Origin: Nymphaea colorata
Taxonomy: Eukaryota > Streptophyta > Magnoliopsida > Nymphaeales > Nymphaeaceae
Assembly: GCF_008831285.2 (NCBI RefSeq)
Contig: NC_045144.1
Location: 20,847,716-20,911,715, forward strand
Length of the DNA: 64,000 nucleotides
Direction of reading: 5' to 3'
The position numbers were made by a program, and so were the translations under genes. Shown here piece after piece: positions 31,924 to 61,002 of this stretch. Under the pieces are notes generated by a model. The model did no database searches. It saw only the letters and a program-made list of their open reading frames with translations, and was not told where the DNA came from. Within the stretch, counting starts at the first letter, position 1, and each line of letters starts with the position of its first letter.

Positions 31924-31958
<35 letters not shown>

Positions 31959-36145: not shown

Positions 36146-36225
36146 ATAAAGGTGGCTATGTGTACCGGGGTTCATATTTATCAAGGTGCACTGTGCATAG
36201 TCTCTCGTGCACCCATCCACAAACT

Positions 36226-36311
36226 CCTATAGGCCGATGGCTCAGTCTTAAGGATACTTGTCATGCATCCTATAGGCCGATGGCTCAGTCTTAAGGATAC
36301 TTGTCATGCAT
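36226..36311. repeat. Perfect 43-base tandem duplication
   Basis: Units 36226-36268 and 36269-36311 are identical, each beginning CCTATAGGCCGATGGCTCAG. Perfect identity suggests a recent slip or duplication. Confidence 0.95.

Positions 36312-37004: not shown

Positions 37005-37008
<4 letters not shown>

Positions 37009-37090
<82 letters not shown>
37009..37090. repeat. Compound (AT)n(AG)n microsatellite
   Basis: An AT run to about 37056 passes into an AG run to 37090. It has the same composition as the tracts beside the RING copies, but no RING gene is adjacent here. Confidence 0.97.
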
Positions 37091-37092
<2 letters not shown>

Positions 37093-37530
37093 CACATTAA
37101 AATGGCAGCACCATTTTTAATTTTGTAATTTTCTCATATTTGCGGCCTTAATAATAACTTAATTATCATATTGCTCCAAGGGCTATATCATAGCTGGTGG
37201 TGAGAGTATCATTGTTAGTTTGATTCATGTGGGTGCTACTCATCTGACCTGCAAATGGTGATAGTGTGACACTCTAATTGACGAGTATATCACGGGTCCT
37301 TCTAGGTCCTGAAGCAGCTTTGGACATCAAGGGCAGAGAGAATGAGGGAGGGCTTCCGTGATTCTTCAGGTGGCTCCCACTCATCCAAACTTAATTACCT
37401 TCCTGAATTTGCTTTTATTATAACAAAAGGTTTTCTTTCTATGTCTTCATATATTTTATTCATCCACAAGCTATGTGTTAGAAATACCTCTCCTCCATGT
37501 TAGAGCTTAAGTACCAAATTTGGAATACAC

Positions 37531-37666
37531 TGATGTGGTTCCTCCACTATTACATGTTGATAATGACCTTTGCAATATATATATATATATTGAAATTGAT
37601 GTGGTTCCTCTACTATTAGATGTTGATTATGACCTTTGATATATATATATATATATATTGAAATTG
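37531..37666. repeat. 66-base tandem duplication with internal AT tract
   Basis: Two copies start TGATGTGGTTCCTC at 37531 and 37597. Each carries its own short AT run and then TTGAAATTGA. They differ in AT-run length and a few bases. Confidence 0.85.
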
Positions 37667-38009
37667 ACTCGGGAATTTCATCCCGAGTCAGATTGCCATC
37701 AAACTGGGCCATTTAGGTACTGACCCAAAAGCACCGAGTCCTAAAGGACTTAGAGGATTTGATTCTGGATTGGGCGGATCAGTTTAATTGTTTTGAGTCG
37801 TTTCATATCGTCCAAATCTAGACTGTTTAATTCTGCACCAATTATAACTCTTGCTCAATATTCCTAATTAAGACATGAATTAAGTTTTTTTTTTTAAAAA
37901 AATGAATCTAGTGTATGTTGTTTATTAGTTATTACTTCGTAATTGTGTTCATTAACCATAAATATTTTCTTGATGCTTATTCCTATTTTACAGATATTTT
38001 CAGCTTCTT

Positions 38010-38759
38010 CATCAATTTGTACTAAAAATTATTACTATATAATATGTTTCATTTTCTATATATCATCCACAACAAATACACCCGAGCAGAGCCATAAATT
38101 TCTAGCTAAGTTGCACAAGTAATAAATTTAAAATTTTTAAGTGATACTGGAACTATTCCTCTTTAGCCCCCTCCATTCCTTGAATTCTTAAGAGTGCAGA
38201 GTTGTTTCTGCAATGTTAAATTATGGTGAGTGCTCAAACAAATTGGTCTGAAAACATGGTTCAGATCTCTCGGTCATGATCTTTTAGCTGTATAAAGCAT
38301 AGGGAAAGGGAGAGGCTTTAGCCTTCACTTGGGCATGCAGTAGAACCTCCTCCTTTCACCCAAAGCACAAGGCGCAAAACTGCTCCTCTACTACTGTTTG
38401 CTCGGATCAACTGGTTATATGGGCCGCTTCCTCTACTACTACTTGCTCGATTCAGCTTGCTATATGCGTCGGCTGGTGCACAATCTTCTTTTTAATAGAA
38501 AAAAAAAAAAAAGAAAAGAGAAAAAAAGTTAAAAAACTACTGAAAAGGACGTTTCTTTTAAAATAATTTTCAAAATACCCCAACTGCCACATTTATATAC
38601 AAGTCCAGCTTGAGCTTGAATTAAAACTAGAGTTATAAACTGGTCGAGTTTCAACATTTAAGCCCGACTTGGCTCGTGTTTTTTTTGTATTTTGAGTTTT
38701 CCTGGGCTGTCAATAATTTTTGACAAATTTTATCACTCTTTTAGTGGTGTTCACTTTCA

Positions 38760-38801
<42 letters not shown>

Positions 38802-39130
38802 GGTTTACTCAGTGAAGCTTGAAATTGCCTCGTAAAGCTCGAGCCGATCTCACTTGTTGTACGTCTAAAAGTTATTCTTATTGTTGTTGTTATAAAAGAA
38901 AATACATTACCATAGAATCACATTTTCAATTACCATAAAACAAAAAATCCAGAAGTGATCACTTCGATTAACATTAAGTTAAATCAAGATTAACCATGAG
39001 AAAGTTATCAATGGCAGAACTGGTTTATCAGAACACTCAGTAATTAAGATCCACGGGATGACCGTTTAGTTTGTCTCTGTCAAGCCAACAATCGTGAGCT
39101 TTATGCCAGTAATCACTTGAACGCAACCCC
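38010..39130 (+). repeat. Segmental duplication D4, copy 1
   Basis: Matches 61003-62050 in reverse orientation, including the poly-A stretch near 38500, the CTCGA-type repeat and the TTACCATAAAACAAAAA segment. Its right end (38890-39130) also matches 34110-34370 directly. No coding frame stands out. Confidence 0.85.
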
Positions 39131-39132
39131 AG

Positions 39133-39362
39133 CATCGAAGTCGTCGGTGCAGTCGTTGAAGAGAAAGAGAGCGGCCATGCATGAAAATGGCGATGATTGT
39201 TTAGCAAAGAAGGTCTGTGTCATCTGCCAGGACGAGTTCGGCAAGGAAGGGAGCTTGGCCTCCATGCCCTGCCACCACGAGTTCCATGAGAAATGCATCG
39301 TTGGTTGGCTCGAACGAGCCCACTCCTGTCCACTCTGTAGGTTCCAGTTGCCCACCGATTGA
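39133..39362 (+). pseudogene. RING-H2 pseudogene D (3' fragment of paralogue C)
   Basis: An inverted partial copy of gene C retaining a complete-looking RING-H2 (CVICQDEF, MPCHHEFH, KC, CPLC) and RFQLPTD before TGA. Everything upstream of PASKSSV is replaced by unrelated D4 sequence. The frame upstream lacks an ATG until 39177, just before the RING, so a normal protein is unlikely. If transcribed, it could make a RING-only peptide of about 61 residues. The junction at about 39130 marks a recombination breakpoint. Confidence 0.8.
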
Positions 39363-41098
39363 TGTACTCACCATTGTATTTAGGTCATACCCATGTTCAT
39401 TGGGCTCATGACCAACATTTTTTTCAGATATGAAACATTGATTCGTCTGATGTTTGAAAATTTTAACTTCAGGAACCTTATTCTATGTGTAAAATGCAGG
39501 TTTTTTAAGTAATTGAATTCCAAACAATTTTTGCTTGGAAATCCATTGTAAATACTTGTTTGTTCATGGTGGATCTTAGACATTGATTATATATAGAAGC
39601 TGGAAAATTAAAGAAAGACTCGGCTCTGACCGGGATCCATGGATTTGAACCTGAAGATTCATTTACATTTGCTGCAAACACAGCAGTGGAAATTTAAACT
39701 CCCACTCACCTGGAAATGGTTTCAACATGTTTATTTGATGCGCAGATAATTAAATCTAACAAGGATTCAAAATGAATCAGTTTAGATTTTTCCAATCCAT
39801 CTAACAAATCGAAATGAATCCGCCTTGTATATATTATAGTCGATTCTAGCAGAAAACTCATGAGTTTGCTGGCAGAGTGTGCTGATAAGCCGCTTCTGCC
39901 ATTGATAACTTTCTCATGGTTAATATTGAATTTAACTTAATGTAAATCTTTGTATACCTTCGATCTTGTGGATGGTATAAAAACGAAGCCATTACTGATG
40001 CCGATCCTTGCAGCAGTATGTGTGGTACGCAGAGCGTTTGAGATTATAGCAAAATCAGTTCTGTGAGGAAGTTGAATATATCTAAGTAAACATTAAGTCT
40101 ATATGATTAAAAAAACTATAATTTATGAACAGTATTACAAAATAAAAACTGATAAGCAACATACATGAGTACTAGATTCATTTATTTTTAACAAAAAGAC
40201 TTAGTTCATGTCTTAATGATGTTGTTTAATAGTTAAAATTGATGCTAATTTAAACAGTCTAGATTTAGACAATTCCTAGCCGACTCAACGAATTAAGCTG
40301 ACGATTTGGATCGGCTTGGCCCCGGCTCAGCCTGATCTGTAGCCATACGAGAACATAAGAAGAAGAAGAACATGATGATGAGATGGAGAACCCAATTGCA
40401 CGCATTCAGTCAATGTCATTAGCTAAAATTTATGTGGGTCAAGCTCAATTCAATAAAATGATTCCATGTAAATTCTTCAAATGTCAATTTCCATTTAATT
40501 AGTAGTGAGCGTACTAAGATGATATATATCCTACAGTTAGAACATACATTTATGTGTTCCAATTCCATAAAAAAATTTTGTGAAAACAAATGAGAAAACT
40601 GCAAAATAAAAAATGGTGCGTCCAGTAGATAAGTTTGAAAATAAATGAACAGTTGGGACGGCTGAAGCAATTTCAATCTGATAACTAAAGACAACTATCT
40701 CAGATTTAGATCTGCTTACGATTTAGAGAGATATATATATTCACCTACAAGTCTAAGCTGCATCCGAATCCTATCCACGTAAACGGTTGTTGCCATCTGG
40801 ATTTAGATATATATCTCTATATATTTCCAGCTTCTACACATATATCTATTAAAAAATATTGAATTAATCAAGAATGGAGATAAAGCAAGCGGCATGAGTT
40901 TCGAGTTCCAGATTCTACACATATATCTATTAAAAAATATTGAATTAACCGAGAATGGAGATAAATCAAGCGGCATGAGTTTCCAGATCTTCGTGCTTGT
41001 TGCTTTATATATCTCTTCATAGATCAATTGCTTAAGCACCGCAGCTCGAGTACTTCCAATCTGCAGAAGATCAGAGAGGGAGAGCGAGAGAGAGAGAG
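39363..41098. other. Intergenic region between RING copies D and E
   Basis: Entirely part of the right inverted arm: 3' flank of D, then sequence matching 33000-34700 in reverse, then the 5' flank of copy E with its GA-rich leader (about 41075-41098). No independent gene is seen. Confidence 0.65.
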
Positions 41099-41608
41099 AT
41101 GTTGAGGACGACAGTTAGCTCGTTAACTCGCAGTCTTGCAAGAGAGATGTGCGACTTGATCCTGCAGCTGGGAAGTGGCCGGGCGGCGTTGAGTCCCGGC
41201 GAGGTTCAGATGGTATCATTGACTACCACCGTCACTTATCACTCAGAGGAAGTGCGGGAAGATGTTGACGGCGATTTGGAGGATCCAACCGAAGATATGA
41301 CCGACGCTCAGGAGGAGATGGATCTTGCCGACGATTTGGATGAGTTGGCCGCCGGCGATGCTCTGTTTGCTTACGAGGCGGTGCCGGCCCCAGCGTCGAA
41401 GGCGTCCGTAGATGCCTTGGTGAGGAAGAAGGCGGAGGAGAATGGCCAGAATACGTGCGTGGTTTGCCAGGCTGAAGTTGGTAGAGGAGACTGCCTGGCT
41501 AGAATGCCTTGCTCCCATGAATTTCATGAAGGCTGCATCCTGGCATGGCTTCGACAAGCCCATTCTTGCCCTGTCTGTCGCCATGAGTTGCCGACTGATG
41601 ATTATTGA
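41099..41608 (+). CDS. RING-H2 protein copy E, in-frame N-terminal deletion (169 aa)
   Basis: Intronless, with its own ATG in the same leader context as B and F. It starts MLRTTVSSLTRS, then jumps directly to REMCDLILQ, skipping about 95 residues present in B and F. The reading frame is kept. The acidic middle and the RING-H2 at about residues 120-160 are intact, ending RHELPTDDY. The lost part holds the conserved N-terminal block (about residues 13-108 of B), so it may keep E3 activity but lose a partner- or substrate-binding region. It could be a functional short form or a pseudogene. Its plus orientation makes it divergent from gene B. Confidence 0.75.
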   Translation: MLRTTVSSLTRSLAREMCDLILQLGSGRAALSPGEVQMVSLTTTVTYHSEEVREDVDGDLEDPTEDMTDAQEEMDLADDLDELAAGDALFAYEAVPAPASKASVDALVRKKAEENGQNTCVVCQAEVGRGDCLARMPCSHEFHEGCILAWLRQAHSCPVCRHELPTDDY

Positions 41609-41854
41609 CAGATTTCATGCATTTTTATTGTTGATTAAAGATGTAAATCTACATTTTATCAGATATGTAATATTTCATATGTTGATGAACAATTTTTCAT
41701 CCTTGTTCTATATTGACAATGCAAATATACGCCAACATTTTATTTTAGTTCAAATTTGCCTGAACTCCATCTATATATTTTTCTCTGCATTTTTTCCTGT
41801 TTTGATTCCTGGCCTGACCACACCTCGCTCCCATTTTAGGCAAAAAGTCCCACA

Positions 41855-41899
<45 letters not shown>

Positions 41900-43059
41900 G
41901 CTATATATATATATATATATATATGGGCACACGATCATCTCTCGCATCTTCGACATTGTGTTGGTGACTTCATTCTCTCTTTCACGATCGAAAATATTCC
42001 AGTGATTGCATCCGTATCTTTGTTCTTGCTGGGAAATTGGAGAACTAAAGCATTCATATATACGCAGGAATGGGAATAACAGAGACAATCTTATATTAAT
42101 CCCAATGGATCTTGCAGAATATGCTGAGATGAATCTGTTCCAATATGATCGATGCGTCTATCATGGTTCTTTGATTGAATTTTCTTGGAAGAAGACTCAT
42201 GGATTTTTCTTTTTCGGTACAGATCAAATGATTTTTCAAAACGAATTAAAGTGTGGATAATTTTCAGTAAAATGATTCCATACAAATTCTTCAAATGTGA
42301 CAAGTTATGCGTATCTCTCTCTCTCTCTCTCTCTCTCTCTAACTGGTGTTCCCAAGCGGAGGGTTGTAGGGCTTTGAAACCCTCCGCCTCCATGCTAAGG
42401 CTGTTCATGAGCGAGTGAGTATGAACCAAATTGAGTCGAGTTCACATGTCTGGAAAGAAACTCAAACTCTGCTTGAGCTGAGCTCGGCTTGAGTTTGATT
42501 TCATTAGCTTGAGCTTGACTTGGCTCCGTTTTAAAAAAAAAAAATTTTTTTGACCTCCCACGTACTAATCACATGTGTATCCATTGAGCAATCTATTTTG
42601 TTTGATCATTTTATGATATGTATTTTATATATTTTCTTTCTCGAACTTAACCGAGTTTATGCGAGCCAAACCCACTTAACGTGGGCTCGACTCGTTTAGG
42701 TTATTGAGTTCATTTGTTAACTCAAACTCAACTGGTTTAATAAATGAGTCGAGTTTAAGTTCGATTCGAACTTCACTCGTTGAACAGCCCTACTTTAGGC
42801 GAAGGATGTGGAGAGTTTGCAAAGGGTTGAACAGCCCTACTCTAGGCGGAGGATGTGGAGAGTTTGCAAAGGGAAGAGACACCTTACACCGAGGAGGGTT
42901 TGCAGGCAGATGGTGTGGAGGGTGAAACCATCTGCTTTTCTCAGCCTAGTGGAGAAAATTGTTCTCTTTATTTTTCTTATTGTAATAAGTTGGTATTTTG
43001 CATAAAAAAAAGTACAAAACATATATTAGGCTCACTTCTACGGTTCCACCTGCCTACGC
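41609..43059. other. Intergenic 3' flank of RING copy E
   Basis: Remainder of the right inverted arm plus degenerate repeats. It holds a CT/AT microsatellite at 41859-41924, another CT run at about 42318-42341, CTCGA-type repeats at 42420-42795, and a tandem of about 47 bases near 42785-42880. No gene found. Confidence 0.6.
41859..41924. repeat. Compound (CT)n(AT)n microsatellite, 3' of RING copy E
   Basis: Reverse-orientation counterpart of the tracts at 31855-31962 and 59257-59367. It lies about 250 bases beyond the stop codon of copy E. Confidence 0.95.
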
Positions 43060-43756: not shown

Positions 43757-46700
43757 CACCATAAATTTTGGTGGCACTTAATACAAACTTTCAAGTTTTG
43801 ATGGTCTGCACAAGTTTTGAGAATCCACGTATAATAGGAGACCTTGGAAATATCCAGTATTTTCTATAAAAGATAGAGATTCTTCTACACTTTTTATATA
43901 TATATATACCCTCAACTTTTATTTGACTAATTGGATTCAGGTTGGAGAAGACCTTGTTAAGGTCATCGCAAAGCTCAACAAAGAGAGCAAGTTGTGTGGG
44001 CAGCTGGAGCTCACAACAAGCATGATGGGACCTGGTTATATGCGGTTATGAGTTATGACAAAAATATTTCCGTTTACACATAAAAACGAAAACCTGACAA
44101 AAATGAAAATCACGAAAAAAGTAATATATATATATATATATATTAAATTACCAAAATGTCTCTCTACTCTTGCTACCTACAATGTAGGTTGGGTGCTCAT
44201 AACAGCACCCAACTCAATCTAAACAAGCATAGGCCAAAAAAAAAAAAAAAGAAATGAATTGTTGAAAAAAATGTTTTATTTTTAATTGTCTCGGTTTTTT
44301 TCTCTTTACAAAAAAATTATTTTTTTTGTGAAATATTTTTATCATTTGACTTACAAAATTTCCTGGTGCGAACAAATAAAATCTCTATAAAACAGAATCG
44401 ACAATGAATGAAAAGTAGAGTTGATTTCAAATGGGAAAAAAGGAGAGAAACATAGGCATTACATAAACGTGGTCCTCCATTTTGGAGAACAATTGAAAAT
44501 CAAATGACATGGTCAAACACTTTACGGCATGACCTTTAATTTAGTGAACAAAGAAATACAATATGTTTGTCACTGCCATGAAGCTTAGAGAATAAACATA
44601 ATGGTAGCTCAAGTTCAACGAATAACCAATACATAATTCATTAGTAGACCATTACTTTTTTCTCCAAGGTTTGATTGTAGCACGCAGTTACCCCATGATT
44701 ATCGCATTATAATTTGTTAAAATAGTAAATTTCTTAACGTTGAGCATCATTTTCACCAGTATCAAGCAACATCAAGTTCCCAGAGTAATACAACAACCAA
44801 TAAATCTCTTATATGTTACATTCAACAATAAACCTTGCCTAAGATGAATTTTAGTTCGCTATTTGCCTCATTTCCCCCCTTTTCTTTAAGTTCAAACGTA
44901 TAAATAACTATTCATGATAGACAAGTTTAAATTGTTTGGGCAATAGCTTAGAATAGATGTATCCATAACACAATAAAACTACTGAAAAACGTACTTTAAT
45001 TGACCTACCGTTTGTTCGGTAGAGTTTATGTCGGTTTGATTTTTTGGTTCGGAAGGAGATTAAGCTTGCGCTGGTAGTTCCCTTGTGTGTGTTTGTGTTG
45101 GTAGATTATGACTTTTGTGCTTTTTTCACAAATGTAACATTATGATAACTAGCTCTGTTGGCTCCTAAAATCCAATATAGTTACTTAAAATTCATGGGCT
45201 TTTTTTATGAATCCTGTATTTTCATGATTGTATAGGCCTTGAAACGTGGACAATCTTAAGATTTCATACGGTGAGAAGAAGAAGAAAATGGTCATCTTCA
45301 ATCCGAGCTCTGACATAGAGGGGACGGGGGGACTTCACATGCATATTGTGAATGCAAGAGCAGTATCTTCGACATTCAACACTACTTATTTTTCTTTCAT
45401 TTTTCCTTTCTCTTGACATGATAGATATATAAGCATGTGTCTCTAATTGAACAGTAATGGAGCAAACAACAACAGTTATGGACCAGTAAACAATAGAACT
45501 AGCTTAGGCACGCGTTGGATGGAATGCTCTAATTTACGCATTTCATTTGTTTATCTGAGGGCTCTGCTTCTTGGGATCATGCTTCTTCTACATTCGATAA
45601 TGTTTATTTGTTTACAGATGTAGAAGTTTTACTCTTCTTATGTGCTTTTACCTAAAACATGGGCACATTGTTGGATTTTTGGTGTCCTGTTATGAACTTA
45701 TGATGCTGAACTGATACATTCCATGTTTTGAGTTTCCATATAAACCATTTACCACTACCACCTGCTTTCTTATCTTCAGCTGTAGTAGGTTCGTCCTAAA
45801 TTGGAATTGGGCAATTGAAGCGAGGCCCTAACAATGCTCAAACATATGATAGGAATCTCCTGCTGCGTGAAGTTACTATATTGCTTCTGGGTCTCTTTTA
45901 ACTTGATCTGTTCTTGAAGGTATCCACTGCGATGATCGAGGAAGAAGTCCAGTCGAAGAGATTGAGAGCACCTCTACATTTTGAAGTCCCGACATATGCT
46001 TAGTACAGAGTGAGCAACGCCAAGCTTGGGAAGGATCGTTGGAGGGGCAGAGATAGTTGGAGATCGTTGCTCATATTTTTGAAGAGGGCCTTTATTGTGC
46101 TTTTTTCATGGTTCTAAATATTGTTTCTTTTGGAGTCATGTTCTCAAGTTTTTTCTGCATCACACGGTTGTGTTTCTATAATTTTAACTCGGATGTTAAG
46201 CTGTCCAATTGATTTGTTGTTTATGCAAGTTTATTAACAAAAAATATATATTTTTTTTATTAGATTGCAGGCCTCAGGCAAACTGATTTCTGACAAATTT
46301 ATTCATAATTGATCCCGTGATGATATCACAAATATAGAACTGTTTTAATTTTGTTGGCCTCTAATAATTGACCATTAAATATTTTCTTTTTAACCAATGA
46401 TAAACTAAACCCCATTACTTAGCTGAGACCATTCCATGTTTTTGGTTATACTTGTGGATATCAATTAAACAACTATGACATGCATTTATCTTAAGGCAAT
46501 TATATACTGACTCAAGTAAAGAATACCTGTGCGTATCAATTAAAAAGACATTTTAGTTCAGGATAATCAATGATGAAAGATAAAATATATAGAGAGGGGG
46601 GTGGGGTGGGGTGTGGGGGGCAGTTCTCAAAGGCTTTTCCTGGCTTGGAACCACAACTTGGCACCATTAATAAATCATATGAAAAGTAGTAACTGAGAGG

Positions 46701-47111
46701 TGAAATGCTGTATTTGTTAAATAAACCAATAAAAAGATCGTACAGATATTTCTTAAATCTTATTGATAGGTAGATAGAATCTTGCTTAAAGTGGCTAAAA
46801 GGCCAGAGGAGCATGAAACAACTATATTGACTGCACTAGGAGGAAACATGTAAGAGAGTATTGGAGAATAAAAAAGTGGGTTATTGCATGGGCCACTTGA
46901 ATAATTGGGCAAAACAGAAAAGGATCCTAATAAACAAGAGAAATGGAATATTTCTGAGTCGTCCTCTAAGCAAAAGAGTTTCCTTAAATCAGAAAATACA
47001 TGGTTCCCCTACATGGCTCAACTTGTAAAGCCTTTCAGCCAGTTTGCGTTTTGTTGAAAATTCATTTTTCTGATTACATTTATACTTGTTGTCTTCTTAA
47101 ACTTCATGCAG
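43757..47111. other. AT-rich intergenic region with scattered exon-like fragments
   Basis: No complete gene recognised. After an acceptor-like TTGGATTCAG, 43941-44051 encodes an open 36-residue frame (VGEDLVKVIAKLNKESKLCG...) ending TGA, which looks like an orphan last exon. Near 45930-46080 a frame reading TAMIEEEVQSKRLRAPLHFE is followed at once by TAG. These could be remnants of a broken gene. A G-rich run (46590-46620) and several AT tracts are also present. Confidence 0.4.
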
Positions 47112-47498
47112 AAACTGGGGGATCCAGTTCTTCATCCATTTCTGCAGGTACTTGTATCCACAGAAAATTGTCAAGATCTTAAAATGTTACTTATTTCATC
47201 AAGAACTTGCCCCTTTTGAGAAAATTACAAGTCAAGAATCTTCTTGTTATGATTTTTTGACAGGACGTGGTCCAGTTTTGGCCACTGGCAAGGACATTAG
47301 GAACTATTGTGCTAAGCCAGCCACAAATTCTTCCATCGATTTTCAAGCAGGTAACTATAGCAATATTCATTTATTGTCCCAGTTGTTGTCGTCCGTAGAA
47401 TTTCTGTTACAGGTAAAACCGTAGAAGAGTTGTTTATGTCTGGTTTGATCCGTGGCTGCCACTTCTCTTCTGACGTTTGCTCCCATGAGGAGACTTGA
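47112..47498 (+). pseudogene. Three-exon fragment of an unrecognised gene
   Basis: Three segments, 47112-47147, 47264-47350 and 47413-47498, are each bounded by AG and GT and join in one consistent phase. They read through GGSSSSSISA, GRGPVLATGKDIRNYC and KTVEELFMSGLIRGCHF to a TGA. The second intron would be 62 bases, near the lower limit for plants. Another frame (KLGDPVLHPFLQ, DVVQFWPLARTLG) is also open through the first two segments, so the true frame is not certain. I do not recognise the protein. It lies just upstream of the hAT pair; the 5' end is not identified. Confidence 0.3.
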
Positions 47499-49070
47499 AC
47501 GAGAAATGACCAATTTGACTGAGCACCACATCTTTCTTCTTCGCCTTCAGATAACTTGGTCATTTTGTGTTTTTATCATGATGACAAACATTGATGGAAT
47601 TTTCAAAATATTGCAGTATTACCCAAAAAAAAGTTTATCACAAACTTTTTGAGAATGTTGCCAAAACTCATTTTCCCAGAATATCACAAGTAGCATTATT
47701 TTAAAAATACATTCTGATTTTTTTTCGCTCCTAACGCTTGGAATAATTATTTAATTTCTCATTAATGTTCCTGTAAGAAAATCAGTAGAAAACTGATAAT
47801 TTCATTTTTCCAATTATTTTTTGTACGTCTTTTTTTTTTTGGGTCGTATGAGATGACAAACTTTTTGTTAATACCCAAGGAAAACCTCTGTTAAATTTTC
47901 ATAACAATTGCCAAAATCAAGTGTTTAAGTTTTTTAAGATAATTTTCAATGTTAGCCTACCTTTTTCAGAAAATGCACCTAATTACCATGTTTCCAGAAT
48001 GGGTATAATCTTTCTAATTTTGAAAAGCGTTTTCCATAAAATTATTGTTTTGCCTTTTCTAAGAGCACAGAAATCATTGATCACTTCAAAGGAGCTCGGA
48101 TACTTATTATGTATACTATTTCATGGAATTAAAAAATATGTAAGAAAAATTATCTGCACACAAGTGTAATCTAGGAGAATAGCTAGCTTGCATCAAGACG
48201 ATAAACTATATGTGAATATCATGGTCATAAAATATCACCTTTGTTTTAGAAAAATTGCGTTTTTATCACCAAAACTGCATGAAATGTTTTAATGGATGAA
48301 GCTTGTTAATTTGTCAGCATGCGGCCAAAAGATATTTCTTGATGTTAGCATGATATTTTCTTTTTGTATAAAAAACTGGATGTCGATGTATTATATGTTT
48401 TCATTTTTTATTTAAGATTTTAAAAACTATTTTAAATTTTGTCAATATGCTAAAACGAAAAAAAAAACGCGTCTAAACGTGTATTTTCGCGTCTTTTGCA
48501 ATTTTTATTTCGGGCGGTGGCATTCGACTATAATTTGAAAAACGTTTAAATGGTAATTTGGGTAAAAAATGAATAAAACGTAAAACTCAAGACATTTCGA
48601 GTTCTTCGACAGAAGGGGGCGGACGAGTTTTTAAAGAGTTTAGGGTTTTCAGATTTGGGAACGGCTCTCGTGCTCAGGTAGGCTTTCCGTTTGATTTTTA
48701 GTCCATTTTCATATGTGCGTTGGACATTTTGACTTTTTGTTTACGTCCGTTAGTTTCTATTTATTTATTTTTTTTTTCAATCGATTAGTTTCAAGTTTTT
48801 GTTTTCACTCAATTTGCATACATCTGTTGGTCGTCTACTTTATAGTTTATAGTTTATACTATATACCTCTTGTTTCAGTCTATTTGCATATGTGTTTAAG
48901 CAATTGTCTATCGCTGTTAAACTTTGTAGTTTGTACGTTTCTTGCTTTGTGGAATAGTTTTGTTTTCAGTCGATTCGCGTATGTGCTTAGGCAATTGTAT
49001 GTCGCTGAAATGACGGTCAGATTTTATGGCTTCAGGACCTCAGTTGTTTGATACTTGACAGCTGCATAAA
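47499..49070. other. AT-rich region upstream of the outer hAT transposase
   Basis: No gene. It is likely to contain the 5' end of the outer hAT element: a leader near 48600-48677 ends CTCAG followed by GTAGGC, and an acceptor-like TTGACAG lies just before the ATG at 49071. This would be a 5' untranslated intron. The outer terminal inverted repeat could not be located by eye. Confidence 0.4.
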
Positions 49071-49474
49071 ATGCCTAGAGGGAAGGACATGTTTTGGTCA
49101 CATGCAACTCAAAGCGATGATGGGAAGTTGATTTGTGAATTTTGTTCTGAGCAATATGCCGGAGGAATTACACGATTTAAGTATCATTTGGCTGGACTTC
49201 AGGGCAATGATGCTGCTCCATGTTCTAATGTGCCTGAAAATGTCAAGCAAAGGGCAATCATAGCTTGTGGAGTTATTTCTGACAGACCCATGAAGAAGGG
49301 GAGAATGCAAAGTGGAAGTGAATCACATTCAAGTGTAGGTTCACCATCTTCAGGCAGCAATTTTTTTTGTGGAACTTTGTCTGAGGGAGGAACAGGCCAA
49401 CAACAAACAATTCCAGGCATGATGAAAAAAGTAGAAAAAGATTTTGTGGATAAGCTTCTACTGAAAGCAATGTT

Positions 49475-49680
49475 GTACGTATCGTACGATACGACCCCGT
49501 ATCGTACGATACGACCCCGTATCGTACGATACGTATCGTATCGTTTGAAGAAAACGATACGATACACCCCTCGTATCGTAAAAAGGGGGTGTATCGGCCT
49601 TGTATCGCACGTATCGTACGATACAGGGCCCGTATCGTACGATACGGGGCGATACACCCCGTATCGTACGATACGGCCTA
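49475..49680. repeat. Left subterminal palindrome array of the inner hAT
   Basis: Six perfect copies of the 14-base palindrome GTATCGTACGATAC within about 205 bases, plus many partial CGATAC/GTATCG units. Subterminal short repeats are transposase-binding sites in hAT elements such as Ac. The array is CpG-rich, so it could be sensitive to methylation. The right end has a different, non-palindromic array. Confidence 0.9.
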
Positions 49681-50035
49681 AAAACGCAAAAGGGGGCCGA
49701 GACCTACTTATTCGGCTTCTTTTTCAAATTTTTCTTCCGTTCTTCATTTCTAACGCTTGGATAGTGCCGTGAGGGAGGGCGATCGTTCATTTTGACCGTG
49801 AAGAACTTGATTTTCATCGTCAAATCGAAGATTAAGTGGTCGATTTGTGCGTGGGTGCTTGATTTTCGTGGGAAGGAAAGGGGTTTTCTTCATTTCAGAC
49901 ATTTCTTCTTCGTAAGGTATGAAATCTCATGTTCTTACCATGTATTCTTAATTTTTTACCGTATAATCGTAGATTTGAAGACTTTGAGTGTTTTTCATTA
50001 AGTTTACCATATGATTTCGTTTTTTTTTTGAAGAT

Positions 50036-52568
50036 ATGGATCCTACATGGCAATGGTGCGAAAGGGTGAAAGAGAATAACCGTTTGAAAGTCAAATGTGG
50101 CTTCTGTGGGAATACACTTTCAGGAGGGATTATTAGAATGAAACACCATTTGGCAGGAACCTCCAAAGATGCGTCTCCTTGTGTTGGAGGACCAAACAAA
50201 CCTTTGCCTCCATTTGTGCGTCAACAATGTTTAGATATGCTTCATGCTTTACGTCAAAAGAGAATACAAAAAGAAATTGAAGATGTAGATGTAGGCTATA
50301 ATGTGCCTTTGGAAGATGAAGAAGAAGAGGATGAAGCTTATGAATGTGATGATGAAGACGATAGCAGTCTAAGAACAGATTTGGAGACCTCAAGAGGTAG
50401 AGATCGTAGAGGAAAAGGGATTATGTATGAAGGAGGTCGATCTGGCATAACGGGAAGGAAGAGGAGAGGCACAACAGATGTTAGGGCCAGGCGTGGTATG
50501 CGACCACCTAGTGGTAGAGTTCCTACTGGTAGGTCTAGTGTTGGCTCTATTAAGAGTTTTTTCCCTTCATATACCAGCCCAGGTGGTCAGCCGCAGATTC
50601 GTGCTGCTATGACATCTAAAGATATGCTATATCATGCACAAAAGCAGGTAGGGAAATGGTTTTATGATGCCTGTATTCCATTCAATGCAGCTAATTCTTT
50701 TCAATTCCAAGCCATGGCAGATGCAATTGCTTCTATAGGCCCCGAATTCAAAATGCCATCATATCATCAGTTGAGAGGCAAAATTCTTCAGGATACAGTC
50801 AAAGAAGTGTCTGAGCATTGCGATGAGTTGAAATTATGTTGGAAGGAAACAGGTTGCTCCATTATGTCAGATGGTTGGACTGATACAAGGTCAAGAACAC
50901 TTGTAAATTTTCTTGTGTATTGCCCTAAAGGTACAATGTTCTTGAAATCTCTTGACTTGTCTGATGTTCCTAAGACTGCTGAGATTTTATTCAATGTTTT
51001 TGATAATGTTGTACAAGAAGTTGGACCTGCAAACATTGTACAGTTTATTACAGATAATGCTGCAAATTATAGAGCTGCAGGAGATTTGTTATTTCAAAAG
51101 TATAGAACATTTTATTGGAGTCCATGTGCCACTCATTGTGTTAATCTAATGCTTCAAGATCTTAATGAGATGCATGATATGAAATCAGCCATTGACCAAT
51201 GTCAAGAGGTAACAAAATTTATCTATAATCATGCATATGTATTGAGTTTGATGAGAAAATTTACAAAAGGAGTTGAATTAATACGACCTGCACAAACTAG
51301 ATTTGCCACAAATGTATTGACTGTGCAGAGTGTGGTGAAACAAAGAACTCCTTTGAGACAGATGTTTGCTAGTGAAGAATGGGCTGCATATCCACATGCT
51401 CATAAAAGAAATGCTTCTTTAGTTGTGGATATTATATTCAATAACGTATTTTGGGAATCATGTGTGAAGCTATTGAAGGTTTGTGTTCCATTAGTTAAGG
51501 TTCTCAGGTTGGCTGACAGCGAGGACAGACCTTCTATAGGGTACTTATATGAGGCTATGGACAAAGCAAAAGAGGCAATTCGAGACAACTTAAAGGAAAA
51601 GAAAAAGTTATATATGCCCATATGGAAGATTATAGATAAAAGGTGGACTGGACAGCTTCATCAACCTCTTCATGCAGCAGCTTATTATCTAAATCCTGCA
51701 ATTAGATTTTCTCCTACATTTAAGAAGGACAGAGAAGTCATGCATGGTTTGTTAGATTGTATTAATGTGTTAGTGGAAGATTCTACAGAACAAGATGCTG
51801 TGCACAATGAGTTGGATCTATATGATAGTTGTTTTCGGAACATGGGACTACCTGCCGCCGTTCGAGCCAGGACAACGATGCGCCCAGGTAAATACATAGA
51901 AATTTTTAATTTACTTTGCATTTGTTACATTTGATTCTTTTAAAACTTTCACATTGATTTGTTATATTTTTGTTTAGATTTGTGGTGGAATAGGTATGGG
52001 TTTGATTGTCCAAACCTAGCACGTTTTGCAGTCAAAGTCCTCAGCCAGACATGCAGTGCTAGTGGATGCGAAAGGAACTGGAGTGTGTTCCAACATATCC
52101 ATAGCAAAAAAAGGAATAGGCTCGAACATAAAAGGTTGAATGACCTTGTCTTTGTTCGATATAATATGAGGTTGAAACAAAGGTAATATAGGCATATACC
52201 TTAATTAATGTTTACATTTTTATGTACAATATATTTATATGAAATTATATACTAACAAATTTTCTCTTATTTAATGTAGAGAATTAGAAAAATCATTAGC
52301 AAGGAAGCACACATCTCAGTTCGATCCTATCAGCTTTGAAAATTTTGACGATCTAGAGCCATGGATTGAAGAAGAACCAGCTACAATATTTGATGATGAA
52401 GATCTTGAATGCTTCAACCTTGAAGTTGAAGCAACAGAAGGCTTTGTTGATGAAGGAGAGTCTGCTACTGCTGGTGCTGGTGCTGAATATGTTGGTGAAG
52501 ATCTTCCAATTCTTGACGATGAAGAAGAAGAAGAAGATGAAGATGAAGATGATGAAGATTATGAATGA
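50036..52568 (+). CDS. hAT-family transposase, intact (781 aa)
   Basis: Catalyses cut-and-paste transposition in the nucleus. Three exons (50036-51887, 51978-52182, 52280-52568) join in phase at GT-AG sites. A probable 5' untranslated intron (49917-50033) ends just before the ATG. A BED zinc finger near residues 5-50 shows C21, C24, H37/H38 and C49. An acidic then Arg-rich linker follows (about 90-165). The catalytic core has SDGWTD with D279 and FITDNAANY with D340. The C-terminal dimerisation region has CSASGCERNWSVF with E649. These match the hAT D, D and E positions. The tail is very acidic (poly-Asp/Glu). No stop or frameshift is visible. The length fits plant hAT transposases of this type. 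Confidence 0.93.
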
Positions 52569-52919
52569 TGAATCATGAATGAGAGTTAAGTCAAGAGTGC
52601 TTTCATTTTATATGTATCAAAAACTTAAGAGTTATGAATCTATGGTTGTTGAACACTTGATTGAATGTTTTATCATTTATGACTTTATCACTTTATGGCT
52701 TATGGCCTTATGCTTTGTTGAATGATATTGTATTATTGTTATGAATTTTGATGTTTATGAATGATGAACGCGTAAGTTTATAGCAATAATAAGTCTATCA
52801 TTATCTCAAACATGTTTTCTATGAACAATTTATTATTTTTAATTTTTTCTGATTTTTTTATGAATTTTCCGAATTTTTTTAAATTTTTTCTGATTTATTA
52901 ATAATTTTTTAAAAAAATT

Positions 52920-53004
52920 TACGATACGGTTACGATACGTTACGATACGTTACGATACAGCGTATCTTAAAGCCCGACCGATACGGCTTACGATACGCGT
53001 TTTA
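52920..53004. repeat. Right subterminal repeat array of the inner hAT
   Basis: Several head-to-tail TTACGATACG units followed by CCGATACGG and TTACGATACGCG. Unlike the left end, the units are in one orientation and do not form the 14-base palindrome. Confidence 0.85.
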
Positions 53005-54674
53005 CAACATTGACTGAAAGGTATTGTAATGAATAACGTGCCTTTCAACTTGCTTCAATCAGTGGATTTCAAAAATTTTGTTGCTGCTGCTACAAACTTT
53101 GGACCAGGGTACATTCTCCCGAGCTCTGAAACAACGAGAACGAAACTACTAGATGAAACAACGAGAACGAGACACGATTAGAAGCAAGTTCTATATAAAC
53201 TTATTGGTGAGCTCTCCAACTGGCACCGTATTTTGGAAGGCAAGTCAAGTTGAAAAAGGCCCTAAAAGTGCAGAATTTATAGTTGATTTTTTATCTCCAA
53301 CTATAGAAGAAATTGGGGCAAACAATGTTGTACAGATTGTTACCGATAATGGAAGCAATTATAGAAAAGCAAAACGTATTCTTGAAGGAAAATATCCAAA
53401 CATTTTTACCACATCTTGTGCTGCCCATTGCATTGACTTAATGCTTGAAGACATTGATAGTTTAGAAGATGTGAAAAATATCATGTGCAAAGCAAGGCAG
53501 GCTGTCAAGTTCTTATATAATAAGCAACATGTTTTAGATATAATGAGAACTTATACAAAGGGAAAGGAGTTGAGGAGGCCCGGTGTGACTAGATTTGCCT
53601 CTCAATTTATTTGTTTGGATTCCATCTTAAAACAAGAAGAGGGCCTGAAGTTTATGGTTGCCTCCAATGATTGGAGACATGTTGAAAACACTGAAAAAAA
53701 ATGATGCAAAAGAACTTACAAGGCTCATTCAAAATGAAGATTTTTGGAGAAAGGGAAAAGAAATAATAAGGTTTGTTGAACCATTAGTGAGAGTACTTAA
53801 GATGGTAGATGGGGAAGGAGCCACTATGGGCTATTTGTATGAAGCACTTGATAGAGCTAAAGAAGCTATCAAGAGTGCATGCAACAACATGAGAGAAAAA
53901 TATATTTCATATTGGAGTATAATTGACAAGAGATGGAACCGTAATTTGAACAGTCCCATATATGCCGCAGCAGCTTATCTAAATCCTCATTTGTTCTGGA
54001 ATAATAAAGTAAGGATGAATGATGAAGTTCGGAAAGGTTTGGAGTTAGCAATAGAAAAACTTCTTGTTCCTGAGGATTGTGCAAATATGTCTCTTGAATT
54101 GGCCAAATATCAAACCAGACATCCATCATTATTTCGTGGTGAGCTATCCATGAATATTATTGACACTTCTCATCCACGTAAGTGTCTCACTTTTTCTGAA
54201 TTGTTGATGATTGGTTAAATGTTTTAATTACAAATTTGCGATTGTATGATTCTCAATTTTGTTTGTTTGTTTCTTTAAATTATGTTAGGTGTTTGGTGGT
54301 TGATATGTGGATGTTCTGTTCCTATTCTTCAAAGAGTAGCAATCAAAATTTTAAGCCAGCCATGCAGTGCATCAGCTTGCGAAAGAAATTGGAGTGCATT
54401 TGAAGCTGTTAATACAAAGAAGAGAAGCAATCTTTTACCATCTAGATTAACTGATTTGGTATTCATTAGAATGAACATGCATTTGCAAAGCATGGCTGCA
54501 GAAATAGCAAACATAAATGCAGATCGAATCTATATTGACCATGTGAATCCATTTCCAGAAGCAGAAAATTTAGAGGTTGGGTTGTCTTCAGATTTAGAAG
54601 AAGAAGATGATGAAGAATGCGGACCAAGTAGAACCAATGAAGAAGATGACTCTACTTCATGGGATGAAGATTAA

Positions 54675-55025: not shown

Positions 55026-55232
55026 AACTGCAGATGGCATTTGCTAGCTGTGACCAAGACAAACAGGGTCATCATTTACATCTCCTGCAGTTCTAGAGAA
55101 TTACTTGAATGCGGGGCACTACTATCATCCGTTCTTTATGCAGTCCAGCAAGTCTTGCTTTCAATGGATGTTGATGGTGGGGAAGGTTTTGTTGATTATC
55201 CACCTATTGTATTCAGGCTGCTTGATCAGTAA
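55026..55232 (+). pseudogene. Exon-like 3' end of an unrecognised gene
   Basis: After an acceptor-like GTGTCAG, a 69-codon open frame in phase 0 reads CRWHLLAVTKTNRVIIYISC, then ELLECGALLSSVLYAVQQVL, and ends DYPPIVFRLLDQ before TAA. It looks like a real last exon, but I do not recognise the family. It may belong to the same gene as 47112-47498, with the hAT pair sitting in an intron. Another frame is also open over part of the segment. Its last 85 bases are duplicated at 17521-17605. Confidence 0.4.
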
Positions 55233-56020
55233 CCGAACATTTTTTATTGAATATGCAGCAGAGAGATTTACTGCGGAACAGTCAATATTTGTCTTTTTTT
55301 ATATTTAATTGTTATTATGACAGTTACAATATTCATTGTCGATTGTGTTGTTTAAAGCTTCAAATGCATATCCAGGGACTTGATCATTCATCTGTACCAA
55401 TAACATTGCATAAGTTTTGCATAACATTTATTTAAATAACTTTAGAAAATTTTGCCTTATTTTTCTCATTTGGTAAACTCCTTTGCTGCGAAAAACAATT
55501 ATGCGACACAACTGAAGACAAGCACCCAGTTACATGCTTAGTTCATTCATGAACAAAGAAGGGCTTAAGTTGCCCGGAAGAAAATATTTCGAACACAGAT
55601 TAGCATTTTGTTTAGCTGAATTTAGCTGATCAGCAACCAGCTGTTGAGTTCATGGCATTTTTCACTTTCAGCAAAAGCAATGTGTGGCCAAAGAAAGTGC
55701 TTCATCCACCTGTTCAGGGGCTGAACTCGAATACAAAATCAAGTCGAAGATTGTGTCTCTTTATTGGCATAATATGATAATCTGCCTAACCCACCTTGCT
55801 TATATTGGCTGCTAGAAGAGCAAGCATCTGTACATGGGTGGAATGCCTGGCAAGGGTTGTTCAACATTTAATGCGCAGAACAGAAAGCGTTTGGTTTGTT
55901 TCGAGCATCTTTTCACCTGCTTACAATCAGGAAGACTGCTTAGAACCATCGACCTAACATAGCACAAAAATATTCAGTTGGTGGTCCAATTGATATACAT
56001 CGCCGATATGTACAATGATA
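55148..56020 (+). repeat. Segmental duplication D1, copy 2
   Basis: Nearly identical partner of 17521-18400 in the same orientation. The homologous sequence starts inside the exon-like frame because the other copy is cut off by the gap. Confidence 0.9.
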
Positions 56021-56893
56021 ATTGGATATGTTCATTAATCCATTTGCATCCTACCTCGCTGTATAGTTGTAAAGGAGACCCTCAGCAATTGGGTGGGCTT
56101 ATATTACAGGGGGAGCGAAAACTTACTTCTTCAGCAGCATATTAAGGGCATAACAATGACAAAAATGCCCAGGAATTATGAAAAGGAGACGAGCTAAAGA
56201 AAATCAGGGCTGAGAGCTCCAAACATCTCCAGATATGGCTGCAGTTTTGAGTGCGTGGATATGGGTATGGATTATTAATGACAAAGCCTCTTGGACACTC
56301 AGATCCACATTATTCCGGCTCAATCCAAACCTGAATACCTGAATTTTATGGATTGGGTTTGGATTTCGTTTTCACAAACGAAAATTAAGAGCTGCAACCT
56401 GAATCATATGTACGGATATCAGTTAAAAATATTATTAGAAGGTAGGTGCTGCACATTCTGGTCTCTGTTCTCTTAACAGCTCCGTTGGTCCCCTGTTTAA
56501 TTTTCCGTGCGTCGTGACTCGCACCATTCAACTGATCGCTTACGTACATTTTTAAAATGCAGTTGTATCTTTCAATTGTATAAAAAATGCCCTTCCTCTC
56601 TCTCCTCAAGAATCAATCACTTCAGTGTGCACCCAATTTCATCTCCACTAAAGAGACTGGACAAGTTTTTGCCATTGTTTCTCTTCTTTCTGTTCAGTTA
56701 TAAAAATAGCTGAGCAGAGCCCATGTGAAAAATTATTGATGTGATAACTAAACGGCCGAGGGCTAGGCTTTTTTCTATTGAATTATCAACTATTGATCAC
56801 AATTTAATCAAAATTAATGAATATTTGGGCCGTCGCCTTAAATTGCAAATTCTGGATGTGTAAACACAAGTATGGCCCATTACTAGGAAGCCA
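56021..56893. other. Spacer between duplicated segments D1 and D2 (copy 2)
   Basis: No gene found. It is unrelated by eye to the corresponding spacer of copy 1 (18401-20030). The short open frames have no domain motif. Confidence 0.5.
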
Positions 56894-57350
56894 ATGACTC
56901 AAGGTGTCAAGTGTCAACAGCATGTGGGTTTGTCTCTGGATGCATGCCAATAAATGAATGATTTATTATAAAACTGAAGACATGTGAATTTCAACTTAAA
57001 CAAATCCTTTGTTATGGAACTAAAACCGGTGAATTCAAACGATATGTTCCGGATTCAATGTTCAGACAGCATCGTACTTGTAAATTCCTTATTAGACATT
57101 AATGTTCCAAATGCACCAAATCTCTCATATGAATGATGATTTGAAGAGCTTTCTCAAGGGGTAGTGTGAATATTTGCAATGTTCCCTGTTATACGTGGAT
57201 GATCAGAACTTCTGCACCATCAAGCCATGAAAGCGTAAGAGTTGGTATTCAAGTGCCACCAAATTTTATGCAGCCTACAAGGCTAACTTTTTTTTTTTCA
57301 TGGACAAAATGCATCATCTATCATGCAATAATATTTATTCTCTATAAATA
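56894..57350 (+). repeat. Segmental duplication D2, copy 2
   Basis: Matches 20031-20610 in the same orientation, with a deletion relative to copy 1 around 57070. At about 57350 the homology switches abruptly to the RING-associated D3 block, a duplication junction. Confidence 0.85.
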
Positions 57351-57889
57351 TTGTGTTTTTGTTAAAAAATTCAGTTCGCGCTACAAGTTTACATGTATTT
57401 TTAAATGGTTTGGGTATCTTTTAAAACAAGTAAGTAGACACCCCATAATGTATAATAAAATTTCAAAGCAATGCTTAATCTCCAACGACTCTGTTTTTCA
57501 TCTTTCATTCCTATCAAACTGAGAAATTTATTTCCTGGAACATAAACCAAAGTCCGGCAAACACAAAAGGGTTTTGAAAATCTAGATTTTGTTTCCATTT
57601 CTTCAGTGTTCCTGAAATAAGTTTATGAAAACTTCTTTCCAATTCTATATTTTCAATGAGTCAAATGGCCCTTAATGAAAGTAGTGAAAACTTGCCATGA
57701 AATCATTGCAATTCTTTCAAGAAACCCTATAACATAGGAAGCGCAAGACCTCAACAACCCAAAAATGGATAAAATATGGACCTTTTGATTCCACCTTAGA
57801 ACATTTGTTTAAATCATTGGCATCAGATGGTTGTGAATCAAGAGCAGCTCCAGCAGCTTTTATGGCCGATAGAGTAAGGGCATCCAAGG

Positions 57890-58010: not shown

Positions 58011-59254
58011 CTGAGGGCATCTGAACCAACCAGTTCCATAAAATCAGATCGAAAGCTAAAATGCTATCATAATAACTAGATTGTGTAATCCTCCCATCTT
58101 TCACAACCTACAGCAAGACATCACTTGTAGCAACCATTAATTGATTTGAGTGGCCTTTTCAGGGTAGTAAGAATGCCGAAGTATGAGCAACAAAGTATCA
58201 TGTAGTGAATGGCGTACCAAGAAATTTTTGGCTAAAGGCACTCTAAGTTTGAATTTCAAATTTTAAGGGGCACTCATATATAAAAAGCTTAAAATTAATG
58301 AAGTTTATATATGTAAATAAAGTAATTTTGTGGGCTGGTGTGGACAATTGCCCACACCAGCTTCAATGTAGCTCTGCTTCTGCATGTACACAGTGCACGT
58401 ACAACAAGTCTTATGACATATACAACATAATTTGTAAGAAAATATACAAAAGAAACTGCTCACATTTATAAGAACGAATATACTTATGATAAAATGGGTA
58501 CATTACAAGAAAAAAAGAAAAAAGAAAAAGAATGGAGGAAAAGAGGGAATGAAAAATAAACGAATGTGAGAAGCCAAAAAAAGGGAAAAACAAGAAGCCA
58601 GGTTGGGAGAAGAAAGAAAAAAGAGAAGAGAAAGGGAGAAGGATGAAAGAAAAATAAATCATTTCATTTTTTTCAAAATCGTCCTAAGAATTGTTCGGAG
58701 TTTTGGCTATTTTTCAGTATCTTTTTTTGTGAATTTTAAAATTTAAATATTCGAAGAGAAATTTGCTGTTTCTTACATTACAATTCTGCGAAATTCAAGA
58801 TATGCATAACTTGTTGGAGAGAGTGGACATTTGAAGAATTTATATGGAATCATTTTACTGAAAATTATCTACACTTTAATTTGTTTTGGAAAATCATTTG
58901 ATCTGTACCGAAAAAGAAAAATCCTCGAGTCTTATTCCAAGAAACTTCAACGAAAGAACCATGATAGAAGCATCGATCATATTGGAACCGATTCATCTCA
59001 GCATATTCTGCAAGATCCATTGGGATCAATATAAAATTGGCTCTGTTATTCGTTTTCCTGGCTATATATGAATGCTTTAGTTCTCCAATTTCCCAGCGAC
59101 AACAAAGATACGAAGCAATCACTGGAATAAGCCCAAGAAACCCACTTGAATGAGAGTGCACCGAGGTGCATGTATCTTCGATCGTGAAAGAGAGAATGAA
59201 GTCACGAACACAATGTCGAAGATGCGAACACGAGAGAGAGAGATGATCGTGTGC

Positions 59255-59371
<117 letters not shown>

Positions 59372-59622
59372 TGTGGGACTTTTTGCCTAAAATGGGAGCG
59401 AGGTGTGGTAGTTGCAGGCCAGGAATCAAAACAGGAAAAGATTAAGAGAAAAATATATAGATGGAGTTCAGGCAAATTTGAACTAAAATAAAATGTTGGT
59501 GTATATTTGCATTGTCAATATAGAACAAGGATGAAAAATTGTTCATCAACATATGAAATATTATATATCTGATAAAATGTTGATTTACATCTTTAATCAA
59601 CAGTAAAAATGCATGAAATCTG

Positions 59623-60417
59623 TCAATAATCATCAGTCGGCAACTCATGGCGACAGATAGGGCAAGAATGGGCTCGTCGAAGCCATGCCAGGATGCAGCC
59701 TTCATGAAATTCATGGGAGCAAGGCATTCTAACCAGGCAGTCTCCTCTACCAACTTCAGCCTGGCAAACCACGCACGTATTCTGGCCATTTTCCTCCGCC
59801 TTCTTCCTCACCAAGGCATCTAGGGACGCCTTCGACGCTGGGGCCGGCACCGCCTCGTAAGCAAACAGAGCATCGCCGGCTGCCAACTCCTCCAAATAGT
59901 CGGCAAGATCCATCTCCTCCTGAGCGTCGGTCATATCTTCGGTCGGATCCTCCAAATCGCCGTCAACATCTTCCCGGAATTCCACTGAGTGATAAGTGAC
60001 GGTGGTAGTCAACGATACCGTCTGAACCTCGCCGGGACTCAACGCCGCCCGGCCATCTCCCGGCTGCAGGATCAAGTCGCACATCTCAATTGCAACATGG
60101 TCAGCCCAACCGAGAAGCCACCCGCACTCGTGATCGGAGAAGTGTCGCCGGACGTGCTCCGTGATCTCCTCTGGTGTCCGCAAGCTGCTGCGGTTCACGA
60201 TGACGGAGCTCGTGAACAAGCGGAGACTATGAACCGCCGGAGTCTCCGTTGAACCTCCTTCTTCACCACCACCTTCAGCTCCTCCGGCTTCTGTACAGAA
60301 CCTTGTCTGGAAATGCAGATGCACCATTGCTGAAGCCGTCTCGTGATGTGCAGTTCTTGGTTCCGGCGTCGCCACCGTGAAACTTCGAGTTAACGAGCTA
60401 ACTGTCGTTCTCAACAT
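59623..60417 (-). CDS. RING-H2 E3 ubiquitin ligase, paralogue F (264 aa)
   Basis: Intronless, ATG at 60417, same length as B and very similar throughout. The N-terminal block (SSVIVNRSSLRTPEEI...HFSDHECGW), acidic middle and RING-H2 at about residues 215-255 (CVVC, MPCSHEFH, GC, CPIC) are intact, ending RHELPTDDY. Predicted soluble E3 ubiquitin ligase with unknown substrate. It lies in the D3 duplicate in the same orientation as B. The leader directly upstream is CT-rich on the plus strand, as in B. Lack of stops or frameshifts suggests it is under constraint or very young. Confidence 0.9.
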   Translation of the reverse strand: MLRTTVSSLTRSFTVATPEPRTAHHETASAMVHLHFQTRFCTEAGGAEGGGEEGGSTETPAVHSLRLFTSSVIVNRSSLRTPEEITEHVRRHFSDHECGWLLGWADHVAIEMCDLILQPGDGRAALSPGEVQTVSLTTTVTYHSVEFREDVDGDLEDPTEDMTDAQEEMDLADYLEELAAGDALFAYEAVPAPASKASLDALVRKKAEENGQNTCVVCQAEVGRGDCLVRMPCSHEFHEGCILAWLRRAHSCPICRHELPTDDY

Positions 60418-61002
60418 CTCTCTCTCTCTCGCTCCCCCTCTCTGATCTTCTGCAGATTGGAAGTACTGGAGCTGCGTTGCTTAAGCAATTGATCTATGAA
60501 GAGATATGTAAAGCAACAACAACGAAGATCTGGAAATTCATGCCGCTTGATTAATCTCCATTCTCGATTAATTCAATATTGTTTAATAGACATATGTGTA
60601 GAAGCTGGAACAGGAAACCCATGCCGCTTGATTTATCTCCATTCTTGATTAATTCAATATTTTTTCATAGATATATGTGTAGAAGCTGGAAATATATAGA
60701 TATATATCTAAATCCAGATGGCAACAACCGTTTACTTAGATAGGATTCGGATGCAGCTTAGACTTGTAGGTGAATAGATATGTATCTCTCTAAATCGTAA
60801 GCAGATCTAAATCTGAGATTGGTGTCCTTAGTTATCAGATTGAAATTGCCTCAGCCGTCCTAACTGTCCATTTTTTTTAAACTTATCTACTGGCCGCACC
60901 ATTTTTAATTTTGAAGTTTCCTCATTTGTTTTCACAAATTTTATATGTGGAATTGGAACACATGAATGTATGCTGGAACATATATATTTTAAAAATATAT
61001 GT
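60418..61002. other. 5' flank of RING gene F
   Basis: Matches 32959-33540. It contains the GATCTGGAAA/CTCATGCCGCTTG-type tandem pair and short TA tracts. Promoter sequence is likely within the first few hundred bases, but no specific element is convincing. Confidence 0.5.

Follow-up and report, generated by a model that had tools for sequence, protein, structure and literature searches.

A young hAT transposon family in the water lily Nymphaea colorata, with one copy nested in the reading frame of another hAT gene

We analysed a 64,000-bp stretch of the genome of the water lily Nymphaea colorata (NCBI RefSeq assembly GCF_008831285.2, contig NC_045144.1, C7:20847716-20911715; hereafter the window, whose positions are used throughout), in which an apparently complete hAT transposon of 3,545 bp (49468-53012) sits inside a second, broken hAT transposase gene. 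All parts of the inner element and of the outer gene lie on the forward strand. We are highly confident that the inner element belongs to a young cut-and-paste hAT family of the DUF659 type, one copy of which entered the frame of another hAT gene and was later duplicated; for this family we infer the chemistry, the binding by the BED finger and the polarity of the ends. It is an ordinary hAT family after a recent burst.

The inner element is flanked by a perfect 8-bp target site duplication (TSD), ACTGAAAG, at 49460-49467 and 53013-53020, and is bounded by short terminal inverted repeats (TIRs), CAATGTTGTA at 49468-49477 and TACAACATTG at 53003-53012, which match over 10 of 10 bp and diverge beyond; the left repeat is also present at other copies. 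Both the duplication and the matching ends had been reported in a preliminary description of this DNA, and both were recovered here. CAATGTTGTA fits the hAT short-TIR consensus (T/C)A(A/G)NG, as quoted in a passage of PMC6027215. Perfect 8-bp repeats flanking perfect 10-bp inverted ends at a distance of 0.5-8 kb turned up twice in 30 simulated 64-kb sequences, and the same filter returned four pairs in the window, of which the three besides that of the inner element fall within a large inverted duplication. Stronger evidence than this simulation comes from empty sites and from the TSDs of 30 independent copies, which are all perfect and all different.

The interrupted gene is itself of hAT type, as had been proposed, with matches to BED (26.8 bits), DUF659 and the dimerisation region that come in pieces. 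Its 5' coding part (49071-49467) carries the BED finger; its 3' part (53021-54674) is broken and holds DUF659 from profile position 45, an intron at about 54178-54288 and the hAT dimerisation region. Read across a single copy of the target site, the host frame resumes in phase, in line with the preliminary description, and reaches a stop only after 185 codons counted from the ATG, including 53 past the insertion site. The outer and inner proteins share 38% identity over 174 residues. When the flanks of the outer hAT were searched for its ends, with an 8-bp repeat next to an inverted end as the pattern, the pairs returned were all weak or of low complexity.

The inner transposase gene consists of three exons (50036-51887, 51978-52182 and 52280-52568) whose joining across GT-AG introns gives an uninterrupted frame of 781 codons, just as first described. 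Exon 1 encodes the BED finger, DUF659 with D279 and D340, and R422-F423, exon 2 encodes E649 together with the bulk of the hAT dimerisation region, and exon 3 encodes an acidic tail and ends in the stop codon. A candidate 5' leader intron (GT...AG, 49917-50033) is predicted from sequence alone. Pfam matches are to DUF659 (9e-60), Dimer_Tnp_hAT (PF05699; 3.1e-13) and zf-BED (PF02892; 3.9e-4). The best match in the PDB is Hermes, a housefly hAT transposon (E 2.7e-9, over residues 194-678), and D279, D340 and E649, previously assigned to hAT positions, each align to an acidic residue of that protein. The hAT signature D, D, R-[W/F], E and C-x2-H is matched by D279, D340, R422, F423, E649, C364 and H367, and these together with W652, S653 and R663 are the ten residues listed as critical or conserved in plant hATs in section 13 of PMC6027215, all of which are present. 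The window copy keeps its transposase frame, its splice sites and both ends, and may be autonomous. No protein relatives of the transposase were found in the viral and prokaryotic contigs scanned.

The family was sought across the 407.8-Mb, 783-contig assembly; 37 of 1,731 first-look candidates were scored, so that all copy numbers are lower bounds. The sample comprises one copy from each of 35 retrieved stretches and the window copy, 36 in all, with second copies within two stretches (L080 and L087) left out. Both ends were located in 35 of the 36 (L094 is without a right end), the 8-bp TSD is perfect in 31, and TSD and TIRs are both perfect in 26. When one segmental duplicate of the window copy (L065) is set aside, 30 independent sites carry 30 distinct perfect TSDs, which is what the genome search suggested in the preliminary description, for the same ends with different 8-base flanks, had been meant to find. 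The alignment holds 34 copies, excluding L070 (six TSD mismatches) and L094. Identity to the window copy ranges from 91.9 to 99.5% among the 33 others and is at least 96% in 29 of them. GT-AG splice sites are retained in all 34 copies and a full frame (769-781 aa) in eight: the window copy, L060, L063, L064, L067, L068, L077 and L079. Six motif strings are exact in five of these eight; L064 and L079 have changes beside, not at, the acidic residues.

L077 (G000:C12:2559880-2564200) has a full frame, but N replaces D340, the second catalytic D, and this copy is therefore probably inactive; it illustrates that an intact frame does not equal an active transposase.

In the tree, the youngest copies form an open, star-like group of ten (Shimodaira-Hasegawa-like approximate likelihood ratio test support 94), six of them with a full frame, and pairwise Kimura two-parameter (K2P) distances inside this group are 0.0022-0.0082. 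The star-like group, the seven other full frames, the different TSDs and the empty paralogous sites bear out the earlier view of a young and apparently complete element, and the other copies are clearly not all older fragments. Nearest-neighbour distances within the set run from 0.0022 to 0.075. Substitutions accumulate in grasses at 6.5e-9 per site per year, and at that rate a distance of 0.0044 would correspond to about 0.3 million years, a figure that is illustrative only. Measured against an expectation that ignores CpG bias, the ratio of nonsynonymous to synonymous changes (N/S) in the youngest ten copies is 1.55 for shared and singleton classes alike, on few changes; across the set, shared coding variants have an N/S of 0.67 times expectation. 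Constraint appears weak along the history of the family and absent on individual copies.

Several results count against our main reading or limit it. The nearest relative of the window copy lies at a K2P of 0.0041 (13 substitutions in 3,210), and the closest pair among the 34 differs at 7 of 3,186, with no identical pairs. Our claim is therefore limited to a recent burst: the proposed recent activity stands as recent spread and does not extend to present activity. Part of the differences between copies may be assembly errors. Singleton coding changes have an N/S of 1.44 times an expectation that again ignores CpG bias, and 34 nonsense changes are seen. The BED finger match is marginal (20.8 bits against a cut-off of 20.6), and the structure prediction for exon 1, at a mean predicted local distance difference test score of 37.6, is too low for use; the sequence match to Hermes would fit an RNase H-like fold.

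It is possible, although we do not favour it, that the window copy looks intact but is non-functional, silenced or subtly defective, and owes its movement to transposase supplied in trans by a sister copy. A full frame is present in seven of the other 33 copies in the alignment, which could serve as the source, though L077 has lost D340, and at nine substitutions it is the window copy, not its segmental twin, that holds the minority state. Against this, the window copy shows no stop, no frameshift and no loss of a splice site or catalytic residue.

A search with the 3' part of the host gene listed 67 matches, from which 12 loci were retrieved. Two of these are filled (the window and its duplicate), seven are empty (L098, L100, L101, L102, L103, L105 and L107) and three have no alignment across the insertion site (L104, L106 and L108). 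Exactly one ACTGAAAG stands at the empty site in L098, L100 and L101; the letters have diverged in the other four. At least the segment 46071-59665, where 59665 is the edge of the retrieved sequence, has an inverted duplicate on this chromosome at a distance of about 80 kb (at about C7:20.974-20.988 Mb); the duplicate carries its own copy of the inner element, L065, at the identical site and between the same TSD. Hence, the insertion is older than that duplication. Differences in the host gene number 13 of 2,049 between the window and the duplicate, 17 of 2,050 between the window and L100, and 12 of 2,123 between the duplicate and L100. These distances alone do not settle the order of events, but the element is present in the window and the duplicate and absent from L100, which suggests that host copies were duplicated, the element entered one of them, and the filled copy then underwent a further duplication. 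Alternatively, L100 may have lost the element cleanly, which requires footprint-free excision.

The two filled copies could, in principle, be independent insertions, or one could have been overwritten by gene conversion with another member of the family as donor; we regard this as improbable. Over element bases 215-3440 the pair has no shared state that is found in two or fewer other copies, and its K2P of 0.0044 makes it no nearer than some unlinked copies (0.0041-0.0044). The absence of shared rare states points to a short interval between insertion and duplication, or to conversion, and a brief interval accounts for the lack of shared private changes. Moreover, the position, the TSD and the orientation relative to the host gene are identical, for which reason an independent double insertion was dropped. 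The right flank is similarly diverged, with 33 mismatches in 6,520, and the far left (46171-48664) more so, with 62 in 2,511.

That the nesting is an artefact, of chimeric assembly or of segmental duplication, is very unlikely: the region is packed with recent duplications and has an assembly gap at 17421-17520, but we dropped this explanation in view of the target duplication, the two assembled filled loci and the seven loci whose alignments run through the unoccupied site. Least credible of all is a domesticated transposase gene under host selection, to be expected without TIRs or TSD at a single conserved locus: the full reading frame in a hAT-type gene would suit it, but it is largely refuted by dispersed copies, most with broken frames, that reach the 96% identity level at different TSDs, by the perfect TSD and TIRs and by the lack of constraint on singletons.

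After its interruption the outer gene seems to have decayed further. At 53128-53170 a 16-bp repeat (filler) replaces the segment around the first catalytic D that other host copies have, and at 53694-53701 there is a run of eight A where the other four aligned host copies have seven. Both lesions, which the preliminary description does not mention, probably arose after the segmental duplication, because they are present in the window's host copy alone among the five aligned. The one-base difference in the A run could be an assembly error. Separate changes in the same segment are present in other host copies.

Just inside the tips, the inner element carries arrays of the hexamer GTATCG or its reverse complement CGATAC. 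The left array (49478-49675) has 20 exact half-sites and the right array (52922-52996) has six, all in a single orientation; counted over the left 210 bp and right 91 bp these are again 20 and 6, with none in the element interior and six in the 60.4 kb of the window that lie outside the element. Twelve of the left half-sites form six 16-bp palindromes, CGTATCGTACGATACG, five of them perfect and one with CG changed to CA. The first occupies element bases 11-26; where palindromes stand in tandem their spacing is 20-21 bp, and the inner cluster of four half-sites on the right is spaced at 10-11 bp. As a control, a 3,545-bp frame was slid over window positions 1-49459 in 50-bp steps, excluding A/T-only and low-complexity 6-mers. 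The best of the 919 placements shared three copies of one 6-mer between its 250-bp ends, and none reached the six of the element.

This organisation is conserved across the 34 aligned copies, in which the right half-sites always run one way (two to six per copy, none reversed) and the left array holds 9-23 half-sites and one to five perfect palindromes; the palindrome at bases 11-26 is perfect in 28. There are five perfect left palindromes in the window copy and three or four in the nine other young copies, and a 20-bp unit of the left array occurs twice in the window copy and once in eight of those nine. The arrays are rich in CpG, with an observed-to-expected ratio of 2.28 on the left and 3.25 on the right compared with 0.64 over the whole window and 0.36 in exon 1. 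A literature search with two strings of the palindrome returned only papers unrelated by title. In viral contigs the gapped end pattern was found in 51 stretches (52 matches), which have at most two half-sites per 200 bp and were thus taken as chance.

In Hermes, according to PMC10368747, repeats in the subterminal regions are bound by the BED domain; the first two make up a quasi-palindrome at left-end bases 11-27, and the arrangement is unlike between the two ends. By this analogy, the BED finger of the present family would recognise CGTATCG half-sites, paired on the left and one-way on the right, so that the ends would be recognised differently and the transpososome assembled with polarity. 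As judged from homology to Hermes, the transposase would cut at the element tips and insert into an 8-bp staggered target, which is thereby duplicated. In the window, the element would have entered the coding frame of one among several recent host-gene duplicates; the filled copy would then have been copied to its inverted position, and the window host gene would have lost further sequence. A more speculative idea, which we consider doubtful, is that the ends are opposite codes, paired palindromes on the left and one-way sites on the right, with array length acting as a fast-mutating dial on cutting or silencing, as the CpG richness of the arrays might allow.

Target preference was analysed over the 30 independent sites (60 half-sites), at positions chosen after viewing the table, which makes the p-values optimistic. 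Of the 60 half-sites, 34 have T at position 3 or, in mirror image, A at position 6 (p 6e-5 relative to 0.31), and the outer TSD base is G or C in 43 of 60 (p 1.5e-7). Both T3 and A6 are found in 11 of the 30 sites and neither in seven. The Hermes pattern nTnnnnAn is weakly enriched (27 of 60, p 0.025).

Some individual copies have features of their own. L076 (G000:C1:11338000-11342770) is full-length and abuts, or has entered, the left-end array of a shortened relative whose match lacks bases 423 to 3267; the TSD of L076, CGATACGT, is the family's own motif. Copies in L080 and L087 likewise sit in or beside other family copies, and nesting thus recurs within the family. In L080 (G000:C9:8707930-8716000) two near-full-length copies adjoin in opposite orientation; Ds elements arranged in this way can cause chromosome breakage in maize. 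The excision of hAT elements proceeds through hairpins at the flanking ends. In L065 (G000:C7:20980300-20984650), alone among the 34 aligned copies, a tandem 8-bp duplication, CAGACATG, lies at element base 2553 in exon 2, and may represent either slippage or the footprint of a hAT excision.

Elsewhere in the window, the assembly gap consists of 100 N, and the adjoining sequence at 17521-20610 is 98% identical over 880 bp to 55148-57352, which lies downstream of the outer hAT by about 470 bp; another copy of the hAT region may be concealed in the gap. Repeated RING-H2 genes form a cluster at 27603-42300 and 58067-60972, which includes an inverted duplication (32923-34110 against 39949-41134, 98% identity). 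WRKY-domain coding pieces, as in a plant genome, lie on the minus strand at 4744-8202.

Here, a candidate autonomous hAT family is described from an early-diverging flowering plant, with several full frames, clean empty sites and a readable order of insertion. The general picture of hAT elements is unchanged, but the family offers a convenient start for a native transposon-tagging system and a test bed for the role of palindromic versus one-way subterminal arrays in the polarity of hAT transposition.

In a comparison that covered hAT systems described in the literature searched, the family appears to be a new one of a well-known kind, set apart from Hermes, Ac/Ds and Herves by the features that follow. 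With Hermes it shares the aligned D, D and E, the 8-bp TSD and a palindrome near the left tip (11-27 in Hermes, a perfect one at 11-26 here), whereas the Hermes repeat is AAG(T/C) rather than GTATCG, its TIR differs, its target is nTnnnnAn rather than T3/A6, it has TRW where TRF is found here, and the DUF659 match is a feature of the present transposase. Maize Ac/Ds, as portrayed in a portion of PMC3260210, has an 8-bp TSD, an 11-bp TIR, an 807-aa transposase and hexameric binding repeats in the terminal 200 bp. It resembles the present hAT family in its TSD, transposase length and subterminal hexamers near the ends, but its TIR is (C/T)AGGGATGAAA and its hexamer AAACGG, in contrast to CAATGTTGTA and GTATCG, and membership of the Ac/Ds family was rejected on the ends. 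Five key residues and a TIR of at least 8 bp, the rule for candidate autonomous plant hATs in the relevant part of PMC6027215, are all present here, but the third TIR base is A, which fits the older YARNG and not that study's (T/C)AGNGNNG. In Herves, an Anopheles hAT, the transposase binds one short motif that recurs at both ends, and the ends are asymmetric, as set out in PMC3143072; its motif, CG/AATTCAT, belongs to another host and differs in sequence, but the Nymphaea family likewise combines one short motif common to both ends with end asymmetry.

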